From Arthrobacter cryoconiti (GTDB lineage Bacteria > Actinomycetota > Actinomycetes > Actinomycetales > Micrococcaceae), in NCBI RefSeq assembly GCF_020905375.1, contig NZ_JAJJBU010000014.1, forward strand, positions 62,001-126,000: DNA of 64,000 nt, in the 5' to 3' direction. Under the pieces are notes generated by a model. It had not been told where the DNA came from, made no database searches, and saw only the letters and a list, made by a program, of their open reading frames with translations. This document shows, piece after piece, positions 12,961 to 43,613 of the stretch. The position numbers were made by a program, and so were the translations under genes. The number at the start of each line of letters is the position of its first letter. The first letter of the stretch is position 1.

Positions 12961-12965
12961 TGGTG

Positions 12966-13457: not shown

Positions 13458-13620
13458 GCGGCTCACTCCCATGTCTGCTCAAGTAGAAATATTGAACATT
13501 TTGATTCATTCATCGTAAGACGTTCAATCATCAAAGCGTTCTTCAATCACTATATAGAGGTATTTGTAACAACAACGCCGTGAAAGTGAGCATTAAGTGA
13601 GCGTTCTGCAGGAATTGGCG

Positions 13621-14835
13621 ATGCGTCCCGCGCCGCCGGTCCGGCATGGTTGGGATCCGTCCGTTGGAGTGCGCCTGGCACTTGCCGGGACCGTCATCTT
13701 CACACTGTTGGTTGGCGCCAATCTCGCCACGCCCCTCTATCCGCTTTTGCAGCAGGAAATAGGCTTCGATGCCGTCGGAGTCACCGTCGCGTTCACGGCT
13801 TATGTCGGCGCGTTGATTGGCGGACTCGTACTCTTTGGTCACTGGTCAGATCATATTGGTCGTCGGGCCGCCTTGGTGCTGGCCGTAGTGGTCGGCTTAG
13901 CTGGGGGATTGGTATTTGGCACAGCTGTTTCACTACCGCAGCTGATAGCCGGACGTGCACTGCAGGGTTTGGCCGTGGCAATCGGCACGGGGGCGAGCGC
14001 CGCGGCACTGCGTGACTTGATGCCTACTAAGCCCGAGTGGGCGTCCCGTTTTACCTTGCTTTCCTCATCCGGTGGTGTGGCGGCTGGACCGGTGATGGGC
14101 GGGCTGCTGTCCCTGCTCCCACGCCACACACAAGCACCATTTTTGGTGCATTCGGTAATTTTACTGGTGCTACTTGTGCCACTTCTTCTCTTGGACGCTC
14201 GCCCGGCGATTAACCCGGCACCGGCGGGGGAGGGACGGAATTATTTGCGTCCCCACGTTCCATCCCTGGCCAAAAATGCCCGCGGTACTTTTTGGTTAGC
14301 TGCCGTAACCGGTTTCGTCAGCTTCGCCGTTTTTGGCTTCTGCTTGTCCCTTGCCCCAGGCTACTTCGCGCAGATTATGCAGGCAGATTCACGCCCGTTG
14401 ATCGGCCTGCTGGCGGCACTTACATTAGGGTGCTCGGCACTCTCTCAGCTCTTATCGTTGCGTGGGCGCTTCCTGGTACCGGCTGGATTGCTCTTGCTGG
14501 GTGTTTCCGTGGTCCTCATCGCCGCAGCGGGGACGTGGCATTCGCCGTTGTTGCTGGTTTTGGCGAGTGTGAGTGCTGGCTTGGGCCAAGGAGCCGCGTT
14601 CCGTGTGGTGTTCAACGACGTTGCAGCCGCGGTGGAGCCAGTTCATCACGCACAAGTAATTTCGGCCGTGTACATCGTGACGTACTTGGGCAGCGCCATT
14701 CCGGTTCTGGGACTCGGAGTTGCTGTGAGTCTCTGGGGCCTGCAAGCTTCGGTGACTGGTTTCGCGGTGCCGATTGCTGTGTCATGTGTTGTATTGGCGC
14801 TGGTTGCTTGTCGGCGTGGCCGGCCCGGAAGCTAG
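13621..14835 (+). CDS. MFS transporter (drug/metabolite exporter type)
   Basis: A 404-residue major facilitator with about 12 hydrophobic helices and the loop 2-3 motif GHWSDHIGRRAAL. The ATG at 13621 has AGGA 7 nt upstream; a GTG at 13597 would add 8 residues. It lies divergent to one Lrp-type gene and overlaps the stop of another by 4 bp, a layout common for Lrp-controlled amino acid or metabolite exporters. The substrate is not readable from sequence. Confidence 0.82.
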   Translation: MRPAPPVRHGWDPSVGVRLALAGTVIFTLLVGANLATPLYPLLQQEIGFDAVGVTVAFTAYVGALIGGLVLFGHWSDHIGRRAALVLAVVVGLAGGLVFGTAVSLPQLIAGRALQGLAVAIGTGASAAALRDLMPTKPEWASRFTLLSSSGGVAAGPVMGGLLSLLPRHTQAPFLVHSVILLVLLVPLLLLDARPAINPAPAGEGRNYLRPHVPSLAKNARGTFWLAAVTGFVSFAVFGFCLSLAPGYFAQIMQADSRPLIGLLAALTLGCSALSQLLSLRGRFLVPAGLLLLGVSVVLIAAAGTWHSPLLLVLASVSAGLGQGAAFRVVFNDVAAAVEPVHHAQVISAVYIVTYLGSAIPVLGLGVAVSLWGLQASVTGFAVPIAVSCVVLALVACRRGRPGS

Positions 14836-15338
14836 TCGAGAGGGCCGGTGTGGCCTGGCATATGTTTGAAAACTAGTGTGGTTTCCGTGTGTCCAACCAC
14901 AGGGTCTGTGGTCAGATTGTCCAGCACCCAGTCGCGCAGGGCATCGGTGTCGCGGACAGCAATGTGAAGTAAATAGTCCACAGAGCCAGAGGTGTGGAAG
15001 GTGGAGAGCACCTCCGGCAGTTTCGGCACCCGGGAGGTGAAAGTGTCAATCTGGTCGCGATCATGAGCGCGTAGCCGAACAGCAATCAGCGCTTGGACGG
15101 CACGACCGATCACCGCTAGATTGAGCTTCGCTTCAAAGCCTTCGATGGCTCCGCGGTCCACTAAGGAGCGTGTACGCATCAGGGCCGTTGAGGGTGCAAT
15201 CCCCACAGCATCGGCGAGGTCACGGTTGGTGATGCGGGCATCAGCCACCAAGGCATCGATAATCTGGCGGTCCACGGAGTCCAGGGATTCCACAGTCGGC
15301 GCCACATGCGTCCGAATGTTCTTCGCCAATGAAGCCAT
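14832..15338 (-). CDS. Lrp/AsnC-family regulator
   Basis: A 168-residue Lrp/AsnC protein with helix-turn-helix SVDRQIIDALVADARITNRDLADAVGIAPSTALMRTRSL and a RAM domain (STFHTSGSVDYLLHIAVRDTDALRDWV). GGAGGACCTT sits directly before the ATG at 15338. It is divergent from a PLP-dependent lyase, its probable target. Confidence 0.88.
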   Translation of the reverse strand: MASLAKNIRTHVAPTVESLDSVDRQIIDALVADARITNRDLADAVGIAPSTALMRTRSLVDRGAIEGFEAKLNLAVIGRAVQALIAVRLRAHDRDQIDTFTSRVPKLPEVLSTFHTSGSVDYLLHIAVRDTDALRDWVLDNLTTDPVVGHTETTLVFKHMPGHTGPLD

Positions 15339-15618
15339 AAGGTCCTCCAGATTGCTATAAAAATGCGAGTCTGACAATTGATTCAGCTAATAGTTCGCAA
15401 TCCTACCAAATATCTGCATTTATGGGCCATACTTGCATGCATTCGGCGAATCTTCTTAGCTGTGTTCCGTCTCTTGAATGGATTCACTTCAACGGCTCGC
15501 TTCAACGCGGCAGGGCGGCGCAGGCAGAACTAGCCGGAGCAGACAAACAGAAACAGAAGCAGGCAAGCAGGTTCAAGTAGCGGCAATCCGGCAACGAAGC
15601 CGGGGAAGAAGGCACCAC

Positions 15619-16782
15619 ATGTTGGGTTGGGATTCACGGGCAGTTCATGCCGGACGCGAGGATTTGGCGGAGTTGGGCGTGCATGCCGTGCCGCTGGATA
15701 TGTCGACCACGGCACCACTAAGTAGTGTCGAATCCGGTGGAGAGGCTTACGAGCTCATGGCCACCGGCGGGGTCCCAGCCCCCGGCCAAACCACCGTGTA
15801 CCAGCGTTTGTGGAATCCCACGGTGGCTCGCTTTGAGGACGGCGTCTCTACTCTGGAAGGTTCAGAGGAATCGGTCTCTTTTGCTACCGGAATGGCCGCT
15901 TTGACCGCTGTGCTCTTGGCCGTCGTTGCCGGTGGGAAGCCACACGTGGTAGCTGTGCGCCCACTCTATGGTGGCTCCGACCACGTCTTGGCGACAGGAC
16001 TGTTGGGCACTCGGGTTACGTTTGTGCACCCTGGAGAGGTCCGTGCGGCATTGCGTGCGGACACCGGGTTGGTCATAGCGGAAACACCCGCTAACCCGGA
16101 TTTGCGTCTTTTGGACATCAAAGCACTCGTGGCAGAAGCTGACGGTGTGCCGGTCATGATCGACAACACTTTTGCAACTCCTGTGCTGCAGCGCCCACTT
16201 GAAATGGGTGCCGCGTTGGTACTTCACAGTGCCACTAAATTCTTCGGGGGTCACGGGGACGCCATGGGAGGTGTGGTGGCGACTGATTCAAGGTGGGCTT
16301 CCCGGTTGCGTCAGGTACGCGCCGTTACTGGTGGACTATTGACCCCCTGGCCCGCTTACTTGTTGCATCGCGGGCTAGCAACGTTGCCCGTGCGGGTTAG
16401 AGCCCAGCAAGAGAGCGCTTTCAAGGTGGCTATGGCACTTTCCAGTCATGAATCGGTAGCGCGCGTCCTTTATCCCGGACTGGCCGAGTGTGATCCCTTG
16501 GGTTTAGTGGGGACACAGATGTCGGGGCCGGGTTCCCTGCTTTCTTTTGAAGTGGATACCGCCGAGCACGCGGAGGCAATCCCGGCGCGGGTGTTGTTGA
16601 TGACCCATGCGGTCTCTCTGGGCGGGGTGGACACTTTGATCCAGCATCCTGCCGGGTTGACGCATCGCCCGGTTGCTGCCGAGGCTAAACCGCACGCCAC
16701 CATGCTGCGAGTGTCGATTGGGCTCGAAGACCCTGCGGACATCCTGGCAGATTTGATCCAAGCCATCGAAGCGGTTTGCTAA
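15619..16782 (+). CDS. Trans-sulfuration-family PLP enzyme (methionine or cystathionine gamma-lyase type)
   Basis: A 387-residue Cys/Met-metabolism PLP enzyme. Features: SRAVHAGRED at the N-terminus, YQRLWNPTVARFEDGVSTLEGSE, DNTFATPVLQRPLEMGA, the PLP lysine in LVLHSATKFFGGHGD, and a C-terminal LGGVDTLIQHPA..TH. The ATG at 15619 follows GAAGAAGG. Members make or break C-S bonds; which reaction cannot be set from these motifs. Divergence from an Lrp-type regulator favours a catabolic amino-acid lyase. Confidence 0.82.
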   Translation: MLGWDSRAVHAGREDLAELGVHAVPLDMSTTAPLSSVESGGEAYELMATGGVPAPGQTTVYQRLWNPTVARFEDGVSTLEGSEESVSFATGMAALTAVLLAVVAGGKPHVVAVRPLYGGSDHVLATGLLGTRVTFVHPGEVRAALRADTGLVIAETPANPDLRLLDIKALVAEADGVPVMIDNTFATPVLQRPLEMGAALVLHSATKFFGGHGDAMGGVVATDSRWASRLRQVRAVTGGLLTPWPAYLLHRGLATLPVRVRAQQESAFKVAMALSSHESVARVLYPGLAECDPLGLVGTQMSGPGSLLSFEVDTAEHAEAIPARVLLMTHAVSLGGVDTLIQHPAGLTHRPVAAEAKPHATMLRVSIGLEDPADILADLIQAIEAVC

Positions 16783-16790
16783 GCGGGAGT

Positions 16791-18035
16791 TCAGGTTTTT
16801 GGGTGGCCGCTGGGTAACAGTACGACGGCGGCCACCGCAGCGAGCAACACCAGGAATGCGAGTCCACCGGCTAGGGCGCTCCACCCTAACGCCTGGAATG
16901 CAAAACCCGCAGCCCAACCGACAACGCTGGAACCCGTGTAGTAGCTGAGATTGTAGAGCGAGGCAGCTTGGGCCCGGCCTGACGAGGCTAACATTCCGGT
17001 CCAGCCGGATGCGATGCTGTGTGCGCCGAAAAACCCGGCCGTGAACACGACCAACCCCAGCAAAATGACGGGTAACGCAGGTGCCAAGGTGATCGCTAGC
17101 CCCGCCACCATCACGGTAGTGGAGCCGAGTAAGACGGCACGTCGGCCAAAGCGCGCTGCCATTCCCGCCACGACCCGTGAGGAGACGGTTCCGGCCAGAT
17201 AAGCCAGAAAGAGAAGCGCCACGGCCGATGCTGGCAAGAGGTAGGGCGGCGCTTCCAGCCGGAAGCCGAGGTAGTTGTAGACGCTGACAAAGGCTCCCAT
17301 CAATAAGAATGCCTGGGCGTAGAGAGCCAATAACTTGATGTTACGCAGGGGTGGTAGTAACCGGGCCAAGACAGTGCCGAAGCCGCCGCCGCGCACTGGA
17401 AAGAAGCCGCGCGGTTTCGGTGCAAGGAGCAGAAATCCGACGGCGGCAAGGGCAGCAGAGATCGAGACGGACAGCGTACCGATCCGCCACCCGGCGAGGT
17501 CTGCCACCGGCCCCGCCAGAAGCCGGCCAAATAGGCCTCCAAGAGTAGTCCCGGCCACATAGGCTCCTGCAGCGCCAGCAGCGTGGCGAGAACTGACTTC
17601 CTCGCTCAGATATGCAATGGCAAGAGCCGGAATACCGCCAAGTGCGGCTCCCTCGAGGGCTCTAAGTATCAGCAGGACCTGAAAATTTGGGGCGGCTGGG
17701 ACTAGTGAACCCAACACCGTGGCGAGGATGATCGCGGTGCCCATGGTGCGCACTCGACCTATCCGGTCCGCCACAAACGACCACGGCAGTACGGCAATCG
17801 CAAGGCCCATGGTTGCCACGGAGATCGCCAGGGAGGCCTGCGCGGCGCTCACCTGTAATTCACGGGACAAAGCTGGAAGAAGACCCTGGAGTGAATAGAG
17901 TTGGGCAAAAGTAGCTACTCCGGCGCAGGCAAGTGCGGCTAGTACTCGCCGGTATCCCTTATCTCCGGGTACGTGTCCGGCCCAAGGAACGGTTGTGGCT
18001 ACTGGGCTCACGCCGATATTCTCTGGGATACTCAC
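16791..18035 (-). CDS. MFS transporter (YnfM-like)
   Basis: A 414-residue major facilitator with 12 predicted helices and the motif SFVADRIGRVRTMG in loop 2-3. The GTG start at 18035 has no Shine-Dalgarno; TAACGT lies 7 nt upstream, suggesting a leaderless messenger. It is convergent with the PLP lyase. The substrate is unknown; the N-terminal 26 residues before the first helix are cytoplasmic. Confidence 0.82.
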   Translation of the reverse strand: MSIPENIGVSPVATTVPWAGHVPGDKGYRRVLAALACAGVATFAQLYSLQGLLPALSRELQVSAAQASLAISVATMGLAIAVLPWSFVADRIGRVRTMGTAIILATVLGSLVPAAPNFQVLLILRALEGAALGGIPALAIAYLSEEVSSRHAAGAAGAYVAGTTLGGLFGRLLAGPVADLAGWRIGTLSVSISAALAAVGFLLLAPKPRGFFPVRGGGFGTVLARLLPPLRNIKLLALYAQAFLLMGAFVSVYNYLGFRLEAPPYLLPASAVALLFLAYLAGTVSSRVVAGMAARFGRRAVLLGSTTVMVAGLAITLAPALPVILLGLVVFTAGFFGAHSIASGWTGMLASSGRAQAASLYNLSYYTGSSVVGWAAGFAFQALGWSALAGGLAFLVLLAAVAAVVLLPSGHPKT

Positions 18036-26883: not shown

Positions 26884-29091
26884 TCAATGCCGTTCTAGGT
26901 GTTCTTCGATGAGCAACTCAAGAGTGTTGTGAATGGTATCGAACCGCGGTGTTTGGGCGACTACTGTCGCTGGTACACGCAGAGTTTTCTCTAGTTGTTT
27001 TTTTAGGATTTTAGGATAGGAACAACCACCGTTGACTGGCTGCTGTGGCGGATGGTAGGTACCTGTTGGTGAGGTCCAGCCGACGCGGCCGTCAGCTGCA
27101 AGACTTGGCTTCCAACCACGCAGTTTTATGCCGATCCGGTCTGGGCCCCGGTCCATGCGGTAGCGTCCGTGACTGTCTTTGTCATCGCGGAAGTGTTTGA
27201 GCGCATGGTGTCGTTTACATTCCGGGCTGGCGTTGGCCAATGTGGTTGCCCCGCCCGTGTGGAAGGCAACAACGTGGTCCGTTTCAGTATCCAGAGCATG
27301 GTTGGTGCAGTTCGGGAACGAGCAACTTTCATTGAGGGCCCGCAGGAGAGTCTTTTCGCTTCGTCTTAGTTTGTAGCGTTTGGGAGGCGTGTCCGGTAAG
27401 GGAATATTGGTGACGGGATCCGTGAGAATCCGCAGAAAAGAACCTGTGCTGCCCAGGAGTTTGCGGGCTGTTTCTTCATCGATGGGTCCGTGCCCGACTA
27501 GTTCGGCAGGCTCGTTGGTGAGACCAAGCAGGCCCAAAAACGGGACGGTGATGATGATCTGTGCCTCGGGTTGCGGAGGTTCAGCGATTGTTGCTCCGTT
27601 GCGCACTGCCGTCAACTGCTCGAGATACTCAGCCAGTGGGTCCTCTGTGATCCCATCAACGAGACCGTCAAGCAGGGCTGTTTCATCCGAATCCGTGTCT
27701 GGTTTCTGCCTTGTCCTCGGATACGCAGAGAATCCGCCGCCGGATTCTGGAAGCTCTTGGTCCGGTTCTGCTGCGGGAGTGGAATCGAATGCGGGAGTGG
27801 AGCAGAGGACGCCGTCGAGCGGGACATCCTCGGGAAGCTGAGTGATATCTCCGGGCGCAGGTGGGCGGTGAGCCCATGCAGGGAGCTCGTCGACCAAGGT
27901 GAGAGCGGCCAAACCGTCGTGCTTCCGTTCCGGGACTTTCTGCGTTCGTTCGTCAGCACCTGGGTTGGAGAAGATGTTGGTGTCGCCGAAGCAGTCGCCG
28001 GTGACAGCAGTCGCGGTTGTGGCGCTCGATCCGCCGTTTTTGGTATCAGAGCCGTTTGCTTCGCTACCTGTATTCGTGGGTTTGGTGCCAACTCCGGTGA
28101 CGAGTTGGTGCTGACTTAGCAGTAGGGCGGAAGCGGTATCGGCACGCAGCTGACTTAATGTGCGGAGTTCGCCTGCGACTTGTTGCTTCCGGGCTATCCG
28201 AGTGCAGTTGATATAGATGCCGTTCGCTGCGACTGCTGGTATGTGCAGAGTGAGCCAAGACATGCCGTCGTTGCCAGGTTCTAGCGTCAGTGCGCGTTTA
28301 CCTATCGCTTCACGGGTCCTGGTAGCGAGAGTTTCCGGATGGGTGCCTTCTCGGATGCGTCTAGCTTTGGACGCGAATTTCGAAGCAGTGGTACCGCTGG
28401 CTGCTGTGAGCAGCCGTGTCTTGAAAGCGGTGATGTCCGACAGAGTCATGGTGGGGGTGCTTGAAAGGGTCTGGACTTCGTCAACGATGGTGCACGCATG
28501 GCGCCACGATATTGTGCCAGCAAAGAGTGCAGTGATGGTTTCAGGGTGGGAGGCAAAAAGCTCCATGGCGTGATGAGTCAGAGATGTTGCGGTGCACTCT
28601 GGAATCGTCAGCGTCACGGCAATTTCAGCGATGGTGGAGGTCTCCGCCATTCCGCGCTGCCATGAGTCCAATCCCAACGCAGTTGACTCCACGGCATTAG
28701 CGGCCATAATCCGGTCAATCACGGCCGCCTTGCAGGCTGCGGTGCGGTCCTCCAGCGCCTTCAACGCGGCGAGGGTAGCAATTCCCGCATCCACCACGCC
28801 CCGGGCTACCTGCACACGCGACGTGGGGACGGGGTCTGCACCTGAGTCACTGGCTACCGGTAGGCGCGAGTCACGAACAGTGTCCACAGTTGAGGTGGAT
28901 CCGGCATTGGTGCGCGATTCAAAACTTCCAGTTGAACCCAGATACGAGATGTACGGTGGGAGCCCCGCCAGAGATGGATCATCGGCGGAGAAGACTGCGA
29001 TTGCGGGAAGTGTCAGTGCCGCGATGAGTTCCGCCGCATCCTGTGTGGCGGGAGAATCCCCGTTTCCGGGGTGAATTACTGACCCGTTCAT
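26884..29091 (-). CDS. DUF222 / 13E12-type HNH endonuclease-like protein
   Basis: A 735-residue protein with an N-terminal helical DUF222 (13E12 repeat) region and a C-terminal HNH nuclease motif: CSFPNCTNHALDTETDHVV, TTLANASPECKRHHALKH, that is C-x4-C, DH, N, C and HH..KH. The ~200-residue middle (about residues 330-520) is low-complexity, acidic and poorly conserved. These proteins are multicopy in actinobacteria; cellular role is unsettled (mobile-element or nuclease function proposed). The ATG at 29091 has TATTAT 6 nt upstream and no Shine-Dalgarno. Flanks are AT-rich and repeat-bearing. Confidence 0.85.
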   Translation of the reverse strand: MNGSVIHPGNGDSPATQDAAELIAALTLPAIAVFSADDPSLAGLPPYISYLGSTGSFESRTNAGSTSTVDTVRDSRLPVASDSGADPVPTSRVQVARGVVDAGIATLAALKALEDRTAACKAAVIDRIMAANAVESTALGLDSWQRGMAETSTIAEIAVTLTIPECTATSLTHHAMELFASHPETITALFAGTISWRHACTIVDEVQTLSSTPTMTLSDITAFKTRLLTAASGTTASKFASKARRIREGTHPETLATRTREAIGKRALTLEPGNDGMSWLTLHIPAVAANGIYINCTRIARKQQVAGELRTLSQLRADTASALLLSQHQLVTGVGTKPTNTGSEANGSDTKNGGSSATTATAVTGDCFGDTNIFSNPGADERTQKVPERKHDGLAALTLVDELPAWAHRPPAPGDITQLPEDVPLDGVLCSTPAFDSTPAAEPDQELPESGGGFSAYPRTRQKPDTDSDETALLDGLVDGITEDPLAEYLEQLTAVRNGATIAEPPQPEAQIIITVPFLGLLGLTNEPAELVGHGPIDEETARKLLGSTGSFLRILTDPVTNIPLPDTPPKRYKLRRSEKTLLRALNESCSFPNCTNHALDTETDHVVAFHTGGATTLANASPECKRHHALKHFRDDKDSHGRYRMDRGPDRIGIKLRGWKPSLAADGRVGWTSPTGTYHPPQQPVNGGCSYPKILKKQLEKTLRVPATVVAQTPRFDTIHNTLELLIEEHLERH

Positions 29092-29097
29092 ATTTCT

Positions 29098-29127
29098 ATA
29101 ATACAATACGTCGTTATGTATATGCAA
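29098..29127 (-). promoter_or_regulatory. Promoter of the DUF222/HNH gene (leaderless)
   Basis: On the minus strand TTGCAT (29127-29122), an 18-bp spacer, TATTAT (29103-29098) and 6 nt lead straight into the ATG. This is the clearest leaderless-type promoter of the window, set in a markedly AT-rich stretch. Confidence 0.7.
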
Positions 29128-34238: not shown

Positions 34239-35324
34239 GTGGCTCTTACTATTGGCATCGTCGGACTGCCCAACGTCGGCAAATCAACCCTTTTCAACGC
34301 ACTGACACGCAACAACGTGCTCGCAGCGAACTACCCGTTCGCTACGATCGAGCCCAATGTTGGCATGGTCAGCCTGCCGGATCCTCGTCTGGCTAAGCTA
34401 GCCGAGGTCTTTGGCTCTGCACGCATCCTGGCAGCCACGGTGTCTTTCGTGGACATCGCAGGCATCGTTAAGGGCGCGTCGGAGGGTGAAGGACTGGGAA
34501 ATAAATTCCTGGCCAACATCCGCGAGGCAGAAGCGATTGCCCAGGTCATCCGCGTCTTTGACGATCCAGACGTCATTCACGTTGACGGCAAAGTTGATCC
34601 TAGCTCCGATATGGAGACCATCAACACTGAGCTGATCCTGGCGGACCTGCAGACTATTGAAAAGGCTGTTCCCAGGATTGAAAAGGCCGTCAAGCTCAAA
34701 CAGCGTGAAGCGGGCGAGCTCAACGCCATTCTGAACGCTCAGAAGGTTCTAGAGCGTGGAGACACCATTTTCGCTTCCGTTAAGAGCGACAAATTGGAGA
34801 TGGAGTACCTGAAGGAACTGAGCCTGCTCACGGCCAAGCCTTTCATCTACGTCTTCAACGTTGACGACGCCGTGCTGGGCAACCCCGAGCGCCAGGCTGA
34901 GCTGCGCGAACTGGTGGCGCCGGCTGAAGCAATCTTCCTAGACGCGAAACTGGAATCTGACCTCGTGGAATTGGACGAGGACGAAGCCCGGGAAATGCTG
35001 GAGATGAGCGGGCAGGAAGAGTCCGGGCTGGACCAACTGGCCAGGGTCGGATTCCACACCCTTGGGTTGCAGACGTATCTGACGGCGGGCCCGAAGGAAA
35101 CGCGCGCCTGGACGATCCGACAAGGTGACACGGCGCCTCAGGCCGCTGGTGTTATCCACACAGACTTCCAACGCGGTTTCATCAAGGCAGAAGTGGTCCA
35201 CTTCGAGGACCTGATGGAGGCTGGCTCCATGGCCGAGGCAAAGGCTAAGGGCAAGGTCCGGATCGAAGGCAAGGAATACATCATGCACGACGGCGACGTG
35301 GTGGAGTTTAGATTTAATGTTTAG
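34239..35324 (+). CDS. ychF: Redox-regulated ATPase YchF
   Basis: A 361-residue OBG-family ATPase: GIVGLPNVGKSTLFNALT (P-loop), a coiled-coil insert, and a C-terminal TGS domain ending GDVVEFRFNV. The GTG at 34239 has TACGAT 6 nt upstream and no Shine-Dalgarno. The last five codons (aga ttt aat gtt tag) all end in A, T or G of the A+T-rich kind, unlike the rest of the gene; the displaced island copy at 43443 has agg ttc aac gtc taa. This suggests that the 3' end was supplied by an integrating element. Confidence 0.96.
   Translation: MALTIGIVGLPNVGKSTLFNALTRNNVLAANYPFATIEPNVGMVSLPDPRLAKLAEVFGSARILAATVSFVDIAGIVKGASEGEGLGNKFLANIREAEAIAQVIRVFDDPDVIHVDGKVDPSSDMETINTELILADLQTIEKAVPRIEKAVKLKQREAGELNAILNAQKVLERGDTIFASVKSDKLEMEYLKELSLLTAKPFIYVFNVDDAVLGNPERQAELRELVAPAEAIFLDAKLESDLVELDEDEAREMLEMSGQEESGLDQLARVGFHTLGLQTYLTAGPKETRAWTIRQGDTAPQAAGVIHTDFQRGFIKAEVVHFEDLMEAGSMAEAKAKGKVRIEGKEYIMHDGDVVEFRFNV
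35292..35324. repeat. Attachment-site copy 1 at the ychF 3' end
   Basis: The last eleven codons of ychF (GDVVEFRFNV and stop). The matching segment at 43443-43475 agrees at 28 of 33 bases; all five differences are third codon positions. The first 18 bases (GGCGACGTGGTGGAGTTT) are identical and are the likely crossover core. Confidence 0.8.
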
Positions 35325-35718
35325 GTTTTCCGCCTGAAACAACAGAAATGCCGTCCTCTGCGAAAACGTAAGAGGGCGGTATTTGTTGTAAGAAAATCGA
35401 TAATCTCAGAGCGGGCCTTCTGCCGCGTAGCCGGTCGATCCGGCAGTGCAAGTGGGTGAGGAGGCGGTCGCATCATAGAATCATCATGGCGCTCACTCCT
35501 CGTGAGTTGCCTCGTCATATGAGGTGGCGGGCAGTCCGGTCATTGAAGATCAGCTTCAAAATGGGCTGAAAGGGTCATCTGTCAGTCGATGCCAACGTCG
35601 ACCGCAGGTCGAGCGAATGGCAGATAGCTGAGAGGTTATTCCACCAGTGATGGGATACTGGTGTGGACCGACACGATCAATACGTTCGCATCGCGCACCT
35701 CAAGGGGGATTACTGTCT
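35325..35718. other. Island left end, no gene recognised
   Basis: 394 bp between ychF and the NTPase gene. It holds the hairpin at 35348-35382 and, near its end, GATACT (a possible -10) and AAGGGGGA, the ribosome binding site of the next gene. Short frames here show no family features; no integrase remnant was seen. Confidence 0.6.
35348..35382 (+). terminator. Hairpin downstream of ychF
   Basis: A 12-bp stem (35348-35359 with 35371-35382, two G-U pairs) around an 11-nt loop. No uridine run follows, only TTGTTG, so it is a moderate terminator. It belongs to the island side of the junction. Confidence 0.6.
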
Positions 35719-38358
35719 ATGAGCGGTGTCGATACCGTCCGCGGCATCAACTACCAGCACTGCCAAGCGATCCTGATTGGCCTAGACATAGCAGCTGACG
35801 ACTCGGTGCTCGGGATCCGCGTCGAGGGGGCCGTTGACGCCCTGGATCTGGAAGTCATCGCGGATTCCCCCGCCGGGGCCGGACCGTTCGTAGTTCGCGG
35901 ATTGCAGATGAAGTCTCGTCTGCAGCCTTACACGTGGGCGCGGGCCGAGCTGCTCGCCATCGTTCAACGGTGGACTGAACTGCCGCTGAGCGCGAACTCA
36001 GAGTTCTCTTTGCTCACGGACGGCGCTCTGGGACCTTCCGGGTACGCGGTCGCTGCTGCGTTGGACGAAGCTCGCGACGGTAAGTACGACGCCGTCGCAG
36101 AGCTTCTAGGGGTCGATGCCGAAGACCCCTTATGCGCGGTCATGGGTCGTGCGCGAATTGTTTCGGAACCTGGCTCGGTCGAGGCGCTGCTCCTCTCGGC
36201 TGAGATGGAGGTCAGGGCACTGCTCGAAACTGGCCCCACTCATCCAGACGCCGAGAAGGACGCTGCAGACCGGGTCAATGAGCTGTTCCGGGTTATCTCT
36301 ACGCGATCGGGTCTGCCGGATTTGGACGATCGCTTCATCTCAAGGGACGAGATTATCGCCATCGTCGGCGACATCGCTCGACTTGCAGAAGCCGACCGCT
36401 GGACTGGTTCTCTGGCGGCGGAGTACCTGACTGCGATGGCGGCGGAGCAGATCGATAACCTCGTCGTGCCGACGTTGACGGCCAGCTGGCAGAGCTCACC
36501 TATTCGGGTTGAGGACCTCGCTCTTGTCACTGGCCCACTCCTGATGACGGGACGGACCGGTTCGGGCAAGTCCACTCTGTCGCGTTTGTGGCGTCGAGGC
36601 GCTGCATGTGCCGGTGGGAACGTTGTCGTATGTCACGCCGAGGCGTACCTAGCGCAACGGTTAGACCGGTTGGTTGCCGATGCCGTGGGGACCGCGGTGG
36701 GTCGAACGCTGTCGCGCCGGGTGGGCCGCCAGGTACTAGGGGATCCAAACGTGACCGTTATCCTTGATGGTGTTTCTGAGCTTCCGCAGCAGGTCAGGTC
36801 CGAGCTCGCCGCAGATCTTCGCACACACCTTGCCGGGTCCCACAGATCGCGGGTGGTCGGGGTGGGGCGCGACGAGGGAGTGGGCGCGACCCTTTTCCCG
36901 TCGTCAGCGACGGTACAACGCTTATATCCACTCGCGTTCGCTCGTTCGGAGAGGCTCGCGTTGACGGCGAAAGTGCTGGGCGAACCGGAGGGCGACGCGT
37001 CTACGCCCGTTGCCGTCGACGGAGGGGAGCCGACTGCTCTGGCAGGATCTGGTGGAGGCGACATAGAGGACTTCTCTTCTCGCTGTTACGAGGCGTTGGC
37101 GCAGGTTGAACATGCGTTGGGAGATGCCGCTGGCAATCCGATGTTGCTCGAGTTAGCGCTGCAACTGGTAGCCGGTGGAATCCCGTTCACCGACCGGGCT
37201 TCAGTGTACGAGTCGACCGTTTCGCGAATGTCTGACCGCGCGAATGGCGGCGACGTGCGCCTGGCGGTCGCTGTGCTTGGCGTCGTGTTCGCTGAGCTTC
37301 TGGATGAGGGACGGCGGTACGCAAACCCACTGGAGTGGGAACGCATGATCGCCGGAGCCGCAGTGTTCCTTGAGGAGCGCGGCGTTGCGACCGATGTCGC
37401 CGCCATTCGCGAGGCAGTCGCTCGAAGCGGCCTAGTCAACGCCGTGATCACCGGGATTGGGCACACAACGCTCCGAGTGCCTGTTCACGACTCCTTTGCC
37501 GACTACTTCGCCGCTCGTGCACACGCAGACGGGCTGGTTTCCCTACCGGAGATCCTGCTCGAAAATGACGAGAACCGTTTGTGGTTTTCCTCCCAGATGC
37601 GGATGCTCAACAGCTCAGACGTACTGGCAGTCGCCAAGCAGTTGCCTTTTTCCTTGGTGCGCGTCAGCGAGTCGGACCACAACAACATTAGCCAGCAGAC
37701 GCCCGGGATTGTGGCCGCTTTACTGAACACGGTCCTTCCCGACGACACGGACGTCGAGGTGACAATGTGGCAGACGGCGAACGGGAAGACGATGGCTCAG
37801 GCCGGAACCGGGCCCACAACGTGGGTCGACTCGGCGCAGGCCCCGGCCGTCTTCGCAGGTCCGACGGTGGTGGCCGAGGACAGTGATGGGCCTACCGCGG
37901 TCGCGGTGCGACTGTGGCGGCTTATCCTCAGGCAGAGGCTACGTCGCGACCGTCGGTTGCGGCCACGATACCCAGGGTCGCGTCAGGAAGCCTGCGACCA
38001 GCTGAGAGAACACTGCCGTGAGGTCATCGCTGCGGTGGCAACAGTCTTAGTTGAAATCGCACCACCCGGCACAATCAACCGATTGCAGGAGACCATCGGC
38101 CCACTCGGCATGACCGGCGTGGTCTACGAACGTCAAGACGGCGGCTTTGGTCCAGAAGGCTGGTCGGTGAGATACCGGCACACAGAAGCCATCGATTTGG
38201 CCGCTGCGCCTGACTCTTCTCCCCCGCCTGTGGAGCCATTCGGTGAATACTCCGCGTGGACCGACGTGGTGTCCCGGGTCTCAACATCACCGGAAGTCAC
38301 AGCTGCAAAGGCGATCGCCGAGGCGGTCACCAAACTGACACGAAATCACTGGCTGTGA
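35719..38358 (+). CDS. PD-(D/E)xK-like (DUF4297/Cap4-type) domain fused to a NACHT/STAND NTPase
   Basis: An 879-residue protein. The N-terminal ~90 residues (RGINYQHCQAILIGLDI, Glu36, Asp40, Asp43, then Gln63-x-Lys65 in LQMKSR) fit the E...D...QxK layout of Cap4/DUF4297 nucleases. A NACHT-like P-loop NTPase follows: Walker A GRTGSGKST with Lys284, Walker B VTVILDG with Asp350. The remainder is helical with no clear repeat. By analogy with Avs/bNACHT proteins it would sense a phage product, oligomerise and cut DNA. AAGGGGGA precedes the ATG at 35719; a reading from 35647 would add 24 unlikely residues. The nuclease call is by motif only. Confidence 0.7.
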   Translation: MSGVDTVRGINYQHCQAILIGLDIAADDSVLGIRVEGAVDALDLEVIADSPAGAGPFVVRGLQMKSRLQPYTWARAELLAIVQRWTELPLSANSEFSLLTDGALGPSGYAVAAALDEARDGKYDAVAELLGVDAEDPLCAVMGRARIVSEPGSVEALLLSAEMEVRALLETGPTHPDAEKDAADRVNELFRVISTRSGLPDLDDRFISRDEIIAIVGDIARLAEADRWTGSLAAEYLTAMAAEQIDNLVVPTLTASWQSSPIRVEDLALVTGPLLMTGRTGSGKSTLSRLWRRGAACAGGNVVVCHAEAYLAQRLDRLVADAVGTAVGRTLSRRVGRQVLGDPNVTVILDGVSELPQQVRSELAADLRTHLAGSHRSRVVGVGRDEGVGATLFPSSATVQRLYPLAFARSERLALTAKVLGEPEGDASTPVAVDGGEPTALAGSGGGDIEDFSSRCYEALAQVEHALGDAAGNPMLLELALQLVAGGIPFTDRASVYESTVSRMSDRANGGDVRLAVAVLGVVFAELLDEGRRYANPLEWERMIAGAAVFLEERGVATDVAAIREAVARSGLVNAVITGIGHTTLRVPVHDSFADYFAARAHADGLVSLPEILLENDENRLWFSSQMRMLNSSDVLAVAKQLPFSLVRVSESDHNNISQQTPGIVAALLNTVLPDDTDVEVTMWQTANGKTMAQAGTGPTTWVDSAQAPAVFAGPTVVAEDSDGPTAVAVRLWRLILRQRLRRDRRLRPRYPGSRQEACDQLREHCREVIAAVATVLVEIAPPGTINRLQETIGPLGMTGVVYERQDGGFGPEGWSVRYRHTEAIDLAAAPDSSPPPVEPFGEYSAWTDVVSRVSTSPEVTAAKAIAEAVTKLTRNHWL

Positions 38359-38386
38359 AGCAGCCAACTCCCGAAAGGCGAATCAC

Positions 38387-39538
38387 ATGAACCCTGGCGA
38401 AGACACCTCCCCTGAACTCTGGTCCGCCATCTGGGAGTTGGCAGAAGCCTGGTCGCAAACCCCAGTGGTCCAGCAGGTCGCGGCAACGCTGCCCCGGAAT
38501 CGCCCGTTGGATGAACGCGGAGACAAGGCGGTCGGCATCCCTGCGCTCTTGCAGCACCTCGAAGTCCACGCACGCATGATGATGAAACCTCTGATGTACG
38601 GCAGTCGAATTTCTGCGCTACTTGAGCAGCCTCTCATCGATGGGTTCGGGATGCCTGAGGTCGACCGAGATATGTTGGACGAGTGGTTACAGAGGGCTGC
38701 GAATTTGGAGCGCGCGCACCAGATCACCTTGGCTTGGTTGCGCTCTTCACTGGCGGGGTATCCGCTGCTTCGTGCGCCGCAGCTGGCGCCCGGAACCCCA
38801 TTGACGACGGATGAGATGACGCCGCGCTACATTTGGTTTAAGGGCGAGTTCGCATCAGGCCTGCACGAAAGGAGTGCGCCGCCATCTGTGCCGGACCTGC
38901 TCGGCGCTGACGCGACGGGTGCTTCCCAACTTGACCAGGCTGCGCGACACATGAGTCAGCAGCTGACGAAGTCCCAGGCATGGGTCGACTTTGACAGTGC
39001 ACTGCCCACATTGGACGAAGACGCGAAGGAGGCGTTGCGAGCGGCTCGGCGCGAACTTAAAGGGCGCCTGTCAGCAGAGGCACTAGATGACCACCAGCCG
39101 AATCTCGCTCTACCACGTGCCGAGTTCCGCTCACACACCATGAACGAGGTCCTCGATTCGCTTTCGGGCACCGCGCGAATCTATGCCGATGCGTTCGGCG
39201 AGGTGGATCGCTTGTTAGACCTTACTATGGGCGATATTTTTGGTGAGCTGGTCCTGTTCGGCGAACCGTGGCCGCTCCCGGTATTTAACGTCGAGACTCC
39301 GACGCCCGGGGAGCCCATCGTCGGGTTCGAGACGAAGCCTATTGGACCATTCCTGGCCACCGGTCAGGTTGTTTGGATCACAACGGAAGCGGTCGGAGAC
39401 GCCGTCAGGATCGAGTCGCACACGATGAAGATGGACCAAGCTGAAGGCATCCAGGACCACTTCGAAGCGCGCGTTCTTGTCAATACCCGCGAGGCGTGGC
39501 CGGCGCCGACCATGAACAAGTACGGCTCCAGTAGCTGA
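38387..39538 (+). CDS. Unknown protein, partner of the NACHT NTPase (383 aa)
   Basis: It starts 28 bp after the NTPase stop with GAAAGGCG before the ATG, so the two are almost certainly one operon. Two-part look: a helical N-terminus to about residue 270 (many Leu/Ala/Arg heptad-like stretches) and a beta-rich C-terminus (PWPLPVFNVETPTPGEPIVGF, TGQVVWITTEAVGDAVRIES). No signal peptide, membrane helix or catalytic motif was found. A regulatory, sensor or adaptor role for the NTPase is possible, but I do not recognise the family. Confidence 0.65.
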   Translation: MNPGEDTSPELWSAIWELAEAWSQTPVVQQVAATLPRNRPLDERGDKAVGIPALLQHLEVHARMMMKPLMYGSRISALLEQPLIDGFGMPEVDRDMLDEWLQRAANLERAHQITLAWLRSSLAGYPLLRAPQLAPGTPLTTDEMTPRYIWFKGEFASGLHERSAPPSVPDLLGADATGASQLDQAARHMSQQLTKSQAWVDFDSALPTLDEDAKEALRAARRELKGRLSAEALDDHQPNLALPRAEFRSHTMNEVLDSLSGTARIYADAFGEVDRLLDLTMGDIFGELVLFGEPWPLPVFNVETPTPGEPIVGFETKPIGPFLATGQVVWITTEAVGDAVRIESHTMKMDQAEGIQDHFEARVLVNTREAWPAPTMNKYGSSS

Positions 39539-39585
39539 ACACCGACGAGCGGTGCTTTTGGCGGAATGCGCCAGCGGAAAAGGTT

Positions 39586-39602
39586 GCCAGGCATTCCCTG
39601 GC
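39586..39602 (+). terminator. Short hairpin after the first module
   Basis: GCCAGG (39586-39591) and CCTGGC (39597-39602) enclose a 5-nt loop. There is no T-run; it may end transcription of the first module only weakly. Confidence 0.35.
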
Positions 39603-39720
39603 GCGGTTCGGGTAGCCCTACGGGCGTCGACATCAGACTTCTAGTCGTCGGCAGAGCGACAGTCTGCGTTTAGCTCCGTCGCCTCGGAACACACTTAGTA
39701 CTAAGGTTATTCCGTGACGG

Positions 39721-39750
39721 AACGCGGTGGAGTTCCGGTTTAACGTCTAA
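39721..39750. repeat. Attachment-site copy 2 (internal)
   Basis: Read in the ychF frame, these 30 bases encode NAVEFRFNV and a stop; the last seven residues equal the YchF C-terminus. At DNA level it is more diverged than copy 3 (for example GCGGTGGAGTTCCGG). It marks the boundary between the NACHT module and the TIR module. Confidence 0.75.
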
Positions 39751-39835: not shown

Positions 39836-40732
39836 ATGAAAATATTCATAAGTTGGTCCGGTGTTACTAGTAGAGCAGTCGCTGAAGCGTTGAGCGGCTG
39901 GCTGCCAAAGGTGATTCAGGGTGTAGAACCTTTCGTTTCTGCAAAAGATATTGATAAGGGTGCTAACTGGACGGTTGAGCTCTCTCGGGAACTGGAGAGC
40001 GCGCAGTATGGAATCATCTGCCTTGCACCGGATAACTTGCTGTCACCGTGGTTGAATTACGAAACCGGTGCGATTACGAAATCTGTGGACTCTCGAGTTG
40101 CTCCCGTGCTGTTTAACGTCTCCAAGGATGAAGTTAGGCCGCCCATGGCGCAGCTTCAGCTCACGTCGATCGACGTCGAAGAGTTCGAGCTTCTTATGAT
40201 GTCGGTAAATAAGGCGGCGGGAAGTCGCCTTCGTGATGATCAAGTCAAAGAAGCGGTGGCTGTATGGTGGCCATCGCTCGAGACAGCAATCCGAGGAATT
40301 AAGGTTCCTGACAAGCCATCGGGCGCCATGACTGAGACGTCGTCCGAGCCTGCGAAGCCTGAGGCTGATGTCGCTGAAATGATGGGTGAGATTCTCCGCA
40401 GCGTTCGACGCCTAGATAGCAGGATGAAACATCTTGAGGGTGTGCCCGAGCTAATCGCCGGGCGCGATCCTCGCCTTGGGTCGTACCAGTCGGCAATACG
40501 ATTCCTAGAGCGTGCCTTGCGTCCGAATGACATTATTTTAGATTCGATCAGAGTGAAGGATGGACGAGTCGAGGTGAAGCTGACTGATTCTCTGGGTGAC
40601 GAGGATCTCTTGCCGCTAATTCAAGCAGCAGAAACGGTGGCAAAGAGAGAACAGAGTGACGTCTGGCTGCTTATGCCGGATCGAACCATAACCCTTAGTG
40701 CCACTGGGAGTAGAGCAGATGTTCCTTTCTAG
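39836..40732 (+). CDS. TIR-domain protein (298 aa)
   Basis: The N-terminal ~150 residues form a TIR domain: MKIFISWSGVTSR, VEPFVSAKDIDKGANWTVELSRELESAQYGIICLAPDNL, and SPWLNYETGAI, where Glu76 matches the catalytic glutamate of NAD-cleaving TIRs. A polar linker (about 155-190) leads to an unrecognised C-terminal domain (RDPRLGSYQSAIRFLERALRP... DVWLLMPDRTITLSATG) that may sense or oligomerise. A+T content is visibly higher than in flanking genes. The ATG at 39836 has only GGGACTGG upstream. Probable role: NAD depletion or NAD-derived signalling in phage defence. Confidence 0.8.
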   Translation: MKIFISWSGVTSRAVAEALSGWLPKVIQGVEPFVSAKDIDKGANWTVELSRELESAQYGIICLAPDNLLSPWLNYETGAITKSVDSRVAPVLFNVSKDEVRPPMAQLQLTSIDVEEFELLMMSVNKAAGSRLRDDQVKEAVAVWWPSLETAIRGIKVPDKPSGAMTETSSEPAKPEADVAEMMGEILRSVRRLDSRMKHLEGVPELIAGRDPRLGSYQSAIRFLERALRPNDIILDSIRVKDGRVEVKLTDSLGDEDLLPLIQAAETVAKREQSDVWLLMPDRTITLSATGSRADVPF

Positions 40733-41085
40733 CAAAACGCTACGGTGGATTTCTGCCGCGGAAACACCACTGCAGGTCATAGTGAGTAGCACTCGTCATC
40801 AGTGGCTGCGGAATGGTGCGCCCCAGCCTGATCAGCTTGCGTTGCCTGCACATAACGCGTTCTTCAACAGTCTGTCGGCAATATACCTCTCGTAGCCCAT
40901 TTCCAGACAGTCCCTCGGTTTGGCGCATGATCGGGAGGCGTTCGTTCTTATCCATTCCGGAGTCACTCGTGGCACAGCGGTGTCAGGCGCGGTGCCTATC
41001 TCCACGGCAAACCATCTCTCACAGTTGTATCGGCGGGGCTGAAGACGGGTCACGGTAATGAAGTGTGTGGAGGCTCAAGTTGGAC
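40733..41085. other. Spacer between TIR gene and membrane-anchored gene, no gene recognised
   Basis: 353 bp with short frames on both strands and no family features or long hairpin. It could hold a promoter for the next three genes or remains of a decayed gene; I cannot tell which. Confidence 0.5.
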
Positions 41086-41610
41086 ATGAGTAGCTGGTTC
41101 GGTCTCGCTGCATTTGTTGTAGCGACCGTCGCAATCCCGGCAGCGGTCCTGGCCACACGGTATTGGGGGAACCGCCGTGCATGCCCAGAAATGGAGATTC
41201 ATGCAACCCCGCTGCTGCCGAAGAACGCACGGCCTGGATTGCTGGAGGTGACATATGGAGACATACCCTTGGACGAGCCGCATCTGGTGCCGGTGACGCT
41301 CCGCAACTCTGGCCCGCGCGACCTCTCCTCCGGGATGCTCGATGGAGGGCGGTCCATCACAGTGAAGTTCGACCAAACCTTTTGCGGACTCACCGCCGTT
41401 CATGGAGGCATCGAGACTCGGTCGCCCGCTATCGGTGCCAGTGCCGTCGTCTCCGTCGGGCCAGGCGTCTTGAAGTGCGGCGAGTCGTGGTCGTTCAGCG
41501 CTGTAACGACAGGACCGGGAGATGTGACCGTTGGTGCGCCACGGATAATCACCGATGTACAGGCCGCTGTTCCGGCCGAAAAGGCCGCATCGCGATCGCA
41601 TTGCACGTGA
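41086..41610 (+). CDS. Membrane-anchored beta-rich protein of unknown function (174 aa)
   Basis: One N-terminal helix (residues about 4-26, WFGLAAFVVATVAIPAAVLA) and then a soluble part of alternating short beta-like stretches (LLEVTYGDIPLDEPHLVPVTLRN, SITVKFDQTFCGLTAV, AVVSVGPGVLKCGESWSFSAV). GGAGG (41069-41073) could serve the ATG at 41086 or, better spaced, a TTG at 41080. One helix plus a beta domain is an architecture seen among membrane effectors of immune systems, but no family is recognised. 200 bp separate it from the next gene. Confidence 0.6.
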   Translation: MSSWFGLAAFVVATVAIPAAVLATRYWGNRRACPEMEIHATPLLPKNARPGLLEVTYGDIPLDEPHLVPVTLRNSGPRDLSSGMLDGGRSITVKFDQTFCGLTAVHGGIETRSPAIGASAVVSVGPGVLKCGESWSFSAVTTGPGDVTVGAPRIITDVQAAVPAEKAASRSHCT

Positions 41611-41811
41611 GTGGTCTCGGGCGCAGGGTCAAGATTCCACTGCTCAGGAAGTCGTCAGAAATGCCAGCGTATTAGTGGACAGCACGGCGCGCGGTGTCAG
41701 TCATGGGGGAAGTTCTCAGTCAAGAAACGGACTCTAGGCGCTACATGTCCGTCCATCCTTGTATCGTTCATGTAGAAGCTCGCGATGGTCGCGGCCCAGA
41801 AGGAGGAGCCG

Positions 41812-42354
41812 ATGTCATCGTTGGCCAGCGAGACACGCCGCAAGTGTTTCATTTCGTATCACCACGCTGATGAGGCAGAGGTCGAACAGTTCATCCAGAC
41901 TTTCGACCACGACGGCGATGTACTCATCGCACGAGGTATTGGTGCGAGTATGTCGGGAGAAATTATCGGCAGCTCCAACGGCGACTACATCAAATCGAAG
42001 ATACGAGAAAAATACCTCCGCGACACGACTGTCACCGTTGTTTTGGTGGGCCAAGAAACTTGGGGACGTAAGTTCGTTGACTGGGAGATCGGCGCTTCGC
42101 TGCGCAATACCGCGACGGCCTCAGCCAGCGGGTTGTTGGCAATTACGCTTCCGTCTGCGGCCAACTACGTTGGAAAGCAACTGCCAGCGCGTGTTGATGA
42201 CAACGTAAGTGGAGAGGACGGGTACGCCCGCTGGTGGAAGTACCCAACCACCACGGCAGGGTTGGCCAACATCATCGAGATCGCCTATTTGGCTCGTACG
42301 GTGAAGTCGGGCCTCCGAAACAACATCCGGCCGCTGCGCATGCGGAATGCCTGA
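41812..42354 (+). CDS. TIR-like protein, ThsB/DUF1863 (MTH538) type
   Basis: A 180-residue protein made almost wholly of a TIR-like flavodoxin fold: KCFISYHHADEAEVEQFIQTF (13-15 FIS), SSNGDYIKSKIREKYLRDTTVTVVLVGQETWGRKFVDWEIGASL with Glu92 in the WE position. This is the pattern of Thoeris ThsB-type domains, which sense infection and make a cyclic-ADP-ribose-type signal. AAGGAGG lies just before the ATG at 41812; an upstream ATG at 41785 is less likely. It is 10 bp from the SLATT-like gene, so the two are one operon. Confidence 0.82.
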   Translation: MSSLASETRRKCFISYHHADEAEVEQFIQTFDHDGDVLIARGIGASMSGEIIGSSNGDYIKSKIREKYLRDTTVTVVLVGQETWGRKFVDWEIGASLRNTATASASGLLAITLPSAANYVGKQLPARVDDNVSGEDGYARWWKYPTTTAGLANIIEIAYLARTVKSGLRNNIRPLRMRNA

Positions 42355-42364
42355 GAGGAACCCG

Positions 42365-43258
42365 ATGGCTCTCACAGACACAGACTTGCCCGGGGTCTGG
42401 AAGAACGCTGATGGGGAATCCCGACGTGGGCAAACGTGGACGTTGCGTCTTACTTGGCTAAAAGTCGGTGGAGGCGTGCTGGCTGCTTTCGGTGGAGCGC
42501 TGTCTTGGAGCTTAGGCAGCGTGGACGTCGCGGCCGGTATTGTTCTTGTGGGGTTCCTGACAGCGCTCGTCAGTGAACTAGTGTCATGGGTGACGCAGCC
42601 TGAGCGTCTCTGGTATGAGGGGCGTGCAGTAGCGGAGTCGGCGAAGACGCTCGCGTGGCGCTACGCAGTGGGGGCTGATCCGTTTCCAGCGAGCATGTCG
42701 CGAACGGAGGCTGCAAGCAAGTTCAGTGAGCGGATGTCGGCGGTCGCAGATCAGGTGGCCGAGAGAATCATCTTCGATGAAGAGCAGCCAGTTCTAACCG
42801 AGCCAATGGACGCTCTGCGGGCGAGGCCTTTTGAGGAACGGCGCGCAGCCTACATCCAATTTCGGACTCAGGATCAGCAGCAGTGGTATTCGAGGAAGGC
42901 TCGAGCGAATCGCCGCCAGGCCGCTGCCTGGAGATTTATCCTCATCCTGGCTGAAGTCATTGCCGTTGTCCTTGCCGCAGGCCGTGTTTTCGGGGGTTGG
43001 TCCGTGGACTTCGCGGGTCTGCTAGCGGCCCTCATTGCCGCCTGTACCGCATGGGTGGCCGTCAAGCAGTTCTCCCCGCTTGCGTCTGCGTATTCGGTCG
43101 CGACGAAGGAACTGAGCCTTCAGTCATTTAGGCTCTCGGACGTGGCTGAGGACGATTGGCCACTTGTTGCCGCCGACGCGGAGGAAGCGATCAGCCGGGA
43201 GCACACGACCTGGCTGGCTTCCCGAACGGGAAGCGCTACTATTCGCCCTGGCTCGTAA
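42365..43258 (+). CDS. SLATT/DUF4231-type membrane protein, probable effector
   Basis: A 297-residue protein with two helical hairpins: membrane helices at about 33-50, 54-76, 190-207 and 213-232. After each lies a charged helical arm; QQQWYSRKARANRRQAAAWRF before the second hairpin and LWYEGRAVAESAKTLAWRYA after the first are typical of SLATT/DUF4231 pairs. SLATT domains are predicted pore-forming effectors switched by nucleotide signals. GAGAGGAA precedes the ATG at 42365. Its place right behind a ThsB-like TIR suggests membrane permeabilisation after NAD-derived signalling. Confidence 0.78.
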   Translation: MALTDTDLPGVWKNADGESRRGQTWTLRLTWLKVGGGVLAAFGGALSWSLGSVDVAAGIVLVGFLTALVSELVSWVTQPERLWYEGRAVAESAKTLAWRYAVGADPFPASMSRTEAASKFSERMSAVADQVAERIIFDEEQPVLTEPMDALRARPFEERRAAYIQFRTQDQQQWYSRKARANRRQAAAWRFILILAEVIAVVLAAGRVFGGWSVDFAGLLAALIAACTAWVAVKQFSPLASAYSVATKELSLQSFRLSDVAEDDWPLVAADAEEAISREHTTWLASRTGSATIRPGS

Positions 43259-43442
43259 GATTGGGTATAGGTAAGGGCGGCGAGCAGCTCAAACCCGATC
43301 AGAGGTTTCCGTTCTAAAGTCAGTTGGGCTCGCCCTTGAATCTTGCCGATAGGCTCGTCCTTCCAGCACCTCGGGCACCTAGAATTCATGGCCTAATGCT
43401 GGACTGCCAAACACAGGCTGCACACGTAAGGTTGGTATCTGC

Positions 43443-43475
43443 GGCGACGTGGTGGAGTTTAGGTTCAACGTCTAA
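43443..43475. repeat. Attachment-site copy 3 (distal)
   Basis: Encodes GDVVEFRFNV and TAA, exactly the YchF C-terminus, but with no upstream gene. Differences to copy 1 are only at five wobble bases, where this copy has C or G in four. It is probably the original chromosomal end of ychF, now 8.15 kb downstream. Confidence 0.8.
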
Positions 43476-43504
43476 GTCCCGAGCTGCGTAAAACTGGTAC
43501 TACT

Positions 43505-43534
43505 GGCCGCTAAGAACACGTGTTCTTAGCGGCC
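43505..43534. terminator. Perfect 30-bp palindrome, ancestral ychF terminator
   Basis: GGCCGCTAAGAACAC and its exact reverse complement abut without a loop (43505-43519 and 43520-43534), followed by ATGCAC and five T. It would form a strong hairpin working in both directions, ending ychF-side transcription and that of the convergent SCO1664-type gene. Confidence 0.8.
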
Positions 43535-43613
43535 ATGCACTTTTTACCACCAGGCGCCGTCTAAGAGATTGCCGCATCCGGACACTCCCCGTGAAGCTAA
43601 TATCGGAATTCCC

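Follow-up and report, generated by a model that had tools for sequence, protein, structure and literature searches.

The 64,000-nucleotide stretch of Arthrobacter cryoconiti analysed here (contig NZ_JAJJBU010000014.1, positions 62,001 to 126,000; hereafter the window) contains two adjacent genes, one for an 879-residue protein with a NACHT-like NTPase and one for a 383-residue partner, which together look like a compact bacterial immune switch composed of a probable DNA-cutting NACHT protein and an uncharacterised companion. The pair fills one cassette of a tandem array anchored at the 3' end of ychF, and this array is the more surprising finding of the two. An earlier note on this DNA had described the pair, with both open reading frames (ORFs) at their correct positions and lengths, but had missed the ychF cassette context around it. 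The features of the pair are as follows.

35719..38358, + strand: gene for the 879-residue protein (ORF call; ATG at 35719, stop ending at 38358)
38387..39538, + strand: gene for the 383-residue partner, no known domain (ORF call; ATG at 38387, stop ending at 39538)
Domain layout of the 879-residue protein (approximate limits): residues ~1-200, predicted Cap4/LmuA-like PD-(D/E)xK region; ~260-500, P-loop NTPase with NACHT-like motifs; ~600-879, C-terminal region

The two genes lie on the same strand with 28 bp between the stop codon of the first and the ATG of the partner, and the sequence immediately 5' of the ATG at 35719 is AAGGGGGA. The residues highlighted in the note were also correct: Q63-x-K65, a Walker A motif GRTGSGKST with K284 and a Walker B motif LDGVSE with D350. 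In an alignment of six members of the 879-residue family, consisting of the window protein and five relatives (identity 38% and 34% for the two most divergent), E36, D40, D43, E45, Q63, K65, K284 and D350 were invariant, as were E354, N473, P474 and the segment H590-Y596.

GRTGSGKST, LDGVSE, NPMLL and HDSFADY are all present in the window protein; the DGxSE form of Walker B (hhhhDGxxE), NPxLL and HxSFxDYxA are NACHT/STAND-type motifs. Walker A, DGxSE, NPxLL and HDSFADY were unchanged throughout the six-sequence alignment. The assignment of the NTPase to the NACHT type is supported by its motifs, but the Pfam cut-off was not reached: PF05729 (NACHT) gave no match at E ≤ 1 in the window protein, and the relative in genome G377 matched it with an E value of 0.0038 (17.5 bits, below the cut-off of 26.7). 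Pfam returned sub-threshold P-loop families alone for the window protein (AAA_16, E 0.0011), and NCBIfam and PADLOC scans of it gave nothing useful.

The N-terminus likely contains a Cap4/LmuA-type PD-(D/E)xK nuclease; the note had proposed a PD-(D/E)xK fold from its E...D...QxK pattern. This pattern is conserved, and the LmuA model (PADLOC PDLC03848) was matched by five of the six N-termini at E ≤ 1 (best 1.7e-6); the G377 relative matched it with E 0.0015 and the Kineococcus relative with E 0.003, the latter alone also matching Cap4_nuclease (PF14130), with E 0.19. A search of the N-terminus against PDB profiles aligned residues 2-74 with 9n00_A, an AAA family ATPase of 1523 residues (E 0.047). 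Several observations weigh against the nuclease-NACHT assignment. The window's own N-terminus was the sole one of the six that matched no nuclease model, both PF14130 and PF05729 stayed below their cut-offs in the relatives, hhalign against three Cap4_nuclease proteins aligned the E, D and QxK region with a probability of 27%, and the AlphaFold models, whose input alignments consisted of three close sequences (window, L007 and L008), were unusable, with pLDDT values of 33.4 and 36.4.

Related architectures are known. The Lamassu nuclease is a separate protein that works alongside the SMC-like LmuB; the family resembles Lamassu in the LmuA-like N-termini and differs in that no SMC-like LmuB was found encoded beside the pair in the window. 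Avs (AVAST) proteins share the nuclease-STAND layout but are much larger, with long sensor repeats, and the PADLOC Avs models matched neither the window protein nor two distant relatives. The earlier note had considered a compact nuclease-NACHT protein unusual, a view that is contradicted by bNACHT25 and bNACHT32 of clade 6 of the bacterial NACHT proteins, in which a PD-(D/E)xK DNase is placed N-terminal to a NACHT module in one polypeptide and a D48A change abolishes defence (PMC12169576). Compared by description, these proteins differ from the pair in that they are reported to act via host DnaJ, and the available text names no dedicated second gene (PMC12169576). Because compact nuclease-NACHT proteins are already known, the pair would be nuclease-NACHT immunity of a known sort, and its novelty lies in the companion protein. 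The titles and abstracts retrieved in literature searches for two-gene NACHT systems described no such pair.

The partner had no match in Pfam, PADLOC and NCBIfam scans and no informative match in PHROGs, and its best E value against PDB profiles was only 0.094. Its association with the NACHT gene is conserved. It directly followed the 879-residue homologue, in the same order, in all eight full-length loci, down to ~27% identity (each locus counted once: the window, L007, L008/G186 from Sinomonas, L009/G141, the Kineococcus plasmid pKRAD01, G377, G800 and G841), and the open frames of the two genes overlapped in Kineococcus, G377 and G841. The possibility raised in the note that the partner would be absent from most homologous loci was thus not borne out by this gene-pair survey. 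Full-length relatives of the 879-residue protein were found in 3 of 197 genomes of the family (the window's own included), in two genome contigs (one being the Sinomonas genome already counted) and one plasmid record, and in 4 of 335 genomes of the class (own included, besides a fragment in G609), where no more than two candidates were scored in each genome and members may be missed. The G609 fragment, from a contig of 3.6 kb, stands outside the partner count; G028 and G022 had P-loop-only matches and are likewise outside the eight loci. Searches that started from the partner gave matches in 2 of 396 genomes of the phylum and 6 of 394 genomes of the class, and in G659 the partner occurred alone, with no detectable NACHT gene. 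The co-occurrence in eight of eight loci, in so few genomes, suggests that the partner is a true companion but that the family is rare. No relatives of either protein were found in viral contigs and phage records. One class-wide partner match, in G888, was rejected as false, as it overlapped an isocitrate-dehydrogenase-like ORF (named by eye).

Most likely, the pair is a two-gene abortive-infection system, and we favor with moderate confidence an anti-phage system carried as one cassette of the ychF-anchored array. The nuclease fold and activity, the defence function and the role of the partner are inferred. In the proposed mechanism, a phage cue would be detected by the C-terminal region of the 879-residue protein, together with or through the 383-residue partner; the NACHT-like NTPase would then change state and oligomerise, and the N-terminal PD-(D/E)xK domains would become active and cut DNA, so that growth of the infected cell would stop. 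Tight adjacency and overlapping frames would also suit a co-regulated toxin-antitoxin pair in which the partner is no sensor and serves instead as an inhibitor or immunity protein that silences the nuclease-NACHT protein, and HigA-like genes (named by eye) recur in the arrays, where toxin-antitoxin modules are cargo. We consider such an arrangement unlikely: the partner matched no antitoxin family in the Pfam, PADLOC, NCBIfam and PHROGs scans, and its gene is the downstream one and occurs alone in G659, although an antitoxin on its own carries no cost and this point is weak either way. The orphan partner in G659 could equally be seen as a sign that the downstream gene is an independent passenger next to a single-protein defence gene similar to bNACHT25 and bNACHT32, which act as nuclease-NACHT proteins (PMC12169576). 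The partner is retained in all eight full-length loci, although identity falls to about 27% and the contexts are unrelated, which makes this explanation highly improbable. If the two-gene anti-phage system is real, it would bring a two-component design to NACHT immunity in bacteria and raise the question of whether sensing can move to a separate protein.

The array that carries the pair has the following features, in order along the window.

34239..35324, + strand: ychF, redox-regulated/Obg-like ATPase, anchor of the array via its 3' end (ORF GLPNVGKSTLFNALT...VVEFRFNV; named from sequence and homology to relatives)
35301..35323, + strand: site 1, the last codons of ychF itself (right half) and start of cassette A (repeat and pattern searches)
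35350..35380, + strand: putative terminator hairpin where cassette A begins (recognised by eye from the sequence)
39703..39749, + strand: site 2, where cassettes A and B meet, with its left half at 39703-39726 and its right half at 39727-39749 (repeat and pattern searches)
39836..40732, + strand: TIR protein of cassette B (TIR_2, E 5.2e-11; PADLOC TIR-TM, E 3e-62)
41065..41610, + strand: 181-residue ORF of cassette B, no family in Pfam, PADLOC and NCBIfam scans
41785..42354, + strand: ThsB-like TIR protein of cassette B (ThsB_TIR, E 6.4e-18)
42347..43258, + strand: membrane protein of cassette B with SLATT_3 and SLATT_1 (E 1.4e-45 and 3.1e-37)
43428..43474, + strand: site 3, end of the array; left half 43428-43451, right half 43452-43474 (repeat and pattern searches)
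43504..43535, no strand: perfect 16-bp inverted repeat, terminator-like, which directly follows ychF in relatives with an empty site

A repeat search showed that a 36-bp stretch occurs three times, at 35291, 39717 and 43442, and corresponds to the last ychF codons (VEFRFNV-stop). Each junction is a site of ~47 bp, the right half of which again encodes this end of ychF, and the site pattern had three matches in the window versus none in 100 shuffles. Cassette A (35301-39726, spacing 4426 bp) is filled by the pair. Cassette B (spacing 3725 bp) contains the TIR gene, the 181-residue ORF, the ThsB-like TIR gene and the SLATT gene, and is likely a second defence unit (39836-43258); its ThsB-like TIR gene overlaps the SLATT_3 and SLATT_1 gene. 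When the window was compared with two single-site relatives (L025 and L028), similarity ended at 35308 and resumed at 43504 and 43442, positions within and bordering the terminator region of ychF, indicating that 8.15 kb was placed between ychF and its downstream hairpin.

Such sites are widespread. Among the 197 genomes of the family, the site pattern (≤1 mismatch) was found in at least two copies in 84, in one copy in 106 and not at all in 7, with a maximum of 11 copies and at least three copies in 38 genomes; the reversed-pattern control had none among the matches listed. Not every copy in these counts was checked to lie at ychF, and some copies in G150, G098, G141, G591 and G112 lie elsewhere. 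Within the genus, 15 of 23 genomes had at least two copies. At the level of the order, a site match was present in 226 of 258 genomes (with a control match in one, G1107), and same-strand clusters occurred in other families, for example seven same-strand sites in G1028 from 37210 to 49313 of contig 18. We examined 42 array loci (40 fetched regions, the window and L008); most of the family arrays were chosen because a codon-degenerate pattern matched at least twice, and all 22 other members of the genus were included regardless. At least two sites were found in 34 of the 42 loci. The YchF peptide motif was detected in 35 loci, all but one of which (34) had their first site exactly 126 bp after the motif. 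The 99 site-to-site intervals longer than 100 bp had a median of 1474 bp (range 315-17875), the longest probably hiding degenerate sites, and 425 selected array ORFs were mostly unshared between genomes, genes downstream of ychF excepted. No description of cassette arrays at ychF in actinobacteria was found in the open-licence literature.

Variation within the right halves preserved the reading frame. We analysed 78 downstream sites, which were found by the left half alone (≤3 substitutions; ychF's own ends excluded; in a reversed-sequence control of the left half at ≤4 substitutions, 21 matches were obtained versus 123). In their right halves, the mean non-consensus fraction was 0.41 at codon position 3 (range 0.23-0.58) versus 0.13 at positions 1 and 2 (0.03-0.19). 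The exception was the arginine codon, whose first base had a fraction of 0.44; C and A both occur there, as allowed by CGN/AGR. The contrast between codon positions had a Mann-Whitney p of 0.0006 on position values that come from sites related by descent and therefore not independent, and 50 of the 78 right halves encoded VEFRFNV exactly. Right halves deep in the arrays that stay coding would otherwise have no reason to do so, and thus they probably completed ychF once, suggesting that the cassettes completed ychF in turn. Direction of growth and the enzyme involved are parts of the following model: a recombinase acting in trans would recombine a ~47-bp cassette site with the 3' end of ychF. 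The most recently added cassette would thereby supply, from its right half, the codons that now end ychF, and older cassettes would be pushed downstream. We tentatively propose, as a possibility somewhat short of even, that the ychF sites form an undescribed, order-wide cassette system of Actinomycetota, integron-like without an integrase of its own. Every cassette would contribute the final codons of ychF, a housekeeping gene of essential type, and the system would be driven in trans, possibly by host XerC/XerD, and would gather phage-defence and toxin-antitoxin modules, including this pair.

Comparisons between arrays addressed whether the units move as cassettes. Of 70 long matches between arrays, 3 (L019/L043, L022/L023 and L040/L047) were delimited on both sides by sites in each genome of the pair, 21 had one end at a site and 46 had neither, sites making up 5% of array length. 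By inspection, 26 of these 46 matches are conserved genes downstream of ychF that lie between sites in some genomes. The nuclease-NACHT gene and its partner have a site on either side in both the window and G141, the G141 copy being away from ychF among the ORFs listed; in Sinomonas (L008) the pair lies behind ychF with sites downstream and an AAA_15/AAA_21 gene in between. In keeping with its proposed defence role, the pair has defence-type neighbors: the window contributes the TIR, ThsB-like TIR and SLATT genes, L007 encodes a GmrSD enzyme and L008 the AAA_15/AAA_21 ATPase. A number of findings weigh against a cassette system. Among them are the 46 of 70 inter-array matches that end at no site; L007 contains the pair with no site within 18.6 kb, and the site scan around the pair found none in Kineococcus and G377. 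The four close copies of the pair are alike only over ~35597-39513 and not in the flanks out to the sites, and thus the present cassette ends are not shared. In addition, the Sinomonas ychF (L008:3908-5023) ends in VEFRHGITSAGQGKK instead of VEFRFNV at an occupied site, and shared descent together with the choice of arrays weakens the codon evidence, although neither yields a codon pattern by itself. Since the pair lies between sites in some loci and is found without sites in others, it appears to be mobile by more than one route.

A further point against the cassette system is that no recombinase was identified for it. A profile built from 30 tyrosine recombinases found none at E ≤ 1 in six-frame ORFs of the 42 loci, and the single phmmer match was a 102-residue frame in L040 (E 0.0025). 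The serine-recombinase profile matched 2 of the 42 loci, L018 (E 6.5e-42, a 155-residue frame) and, weakly, L042 (E 1.5e-4); the L018 frame lies at L018:3940-4405 (oriented), and no other array cassette had a clear frame of serine-recombinase type. Proteins matching PF00239 were present in 8 of 8 genomes searched, those of G183 being only three short or stop-bearing matches. In G095, whose array locus has nine sites, only two PF00589 proteins were found, and both belong to two orthologous tyrosine-recombinase groups that are common to all ten genomes compared and are presumably XerC and XerD; G183 has one PF00589 protein beyond these groups. Either shared tyrosine recombinases act in trans, or the enzyme is of a non-tyrosine type, or it comes and goes. 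The 3' ends of genes are common attachment sites, and the ychF repeats could be what is left of ordinary prophages or islands that integrated at a favored site and have since lost their integrases, with no common cassette system. A pneumococcal prophage attB is flanked by YchF (PMC8637289), but this is an unrelated case from another phylum, located between genes. The units at ychF are short, their cargo is mostly unshared between genomes, the profile search for tyrosine recombinases found none at E ≤ 1 in the 42 loci and several families of the order share this site, and we regard such an origin as doubtful.

The proposed cassette system resembles two known types of arrays. Staphylococcal cassette chromosome (SCC) elements are found in tandem at the 3' end of a conserved gene, rlmH, and each junction restores the gene end, as in the ychF array. 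The latter differs in its anchor and in its units, which are mostly 0.5-5 kb, and its serine-recombinase matches are one resolvase-sized ORF and one weak match, with no ccr set. Chromosomal integrons carry tandem, diverse, small cassettes, including toxin-antitoxin-like and defence genes, beside a fixed site, and the ychF array likewise consists of tandem and diverse small cassettes that would grow next to a fixed site. However, no integron integrase was found in the arrays of the 42 loci, and the cassette ends showed no attC-like co-folding (-4.52 kcal/mol for own junctions versus -4.59 for random pairings and -3.06 for shuffles). The array thus works like SCC or integron arrays, but the defining enzyme of neither family was found in the 42 loci. 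If the proposal is correct, the array would be a hunting ground for unknown actinobacterial defence genes, in which every gene behind ychF is a candidate, and it poses the question of what enzyme could move cassettes when every insertion has to restore the end of ychF.

Additional observations concern individual sites and cassettes. A recurrent cassette start, gcgttattgacg..., was found right after the site in L019, L020, L021, L029, L030, L037, L039, L041 and L043, and several of these cassettes contained the HigA-like gene. In L020, L026, L037, L039, L042 and L043, a second, degenerate copy of the right half was located exactly 23 bp after some sites, which suggests that these copies are putative additional binding repeats. 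Beside the pair in G141 (L009 11417-11460), the site takes an almost perfectly palindromic form that was matched on both strands. A second contig of G591 (contig 2, L067:4955) has a site directly after coding sequence resembling ychF (RIEGKEYGMADGDVVEFRFNV), as though the 3' end of a ychF gene had been picked up there. Elsewhere in the window, an HNH-like C-terminus, with an HNH match below cut-off, belongs to a DUF222 protein (E 3.1e-14) encoded on the minus strand at 26884-29127.

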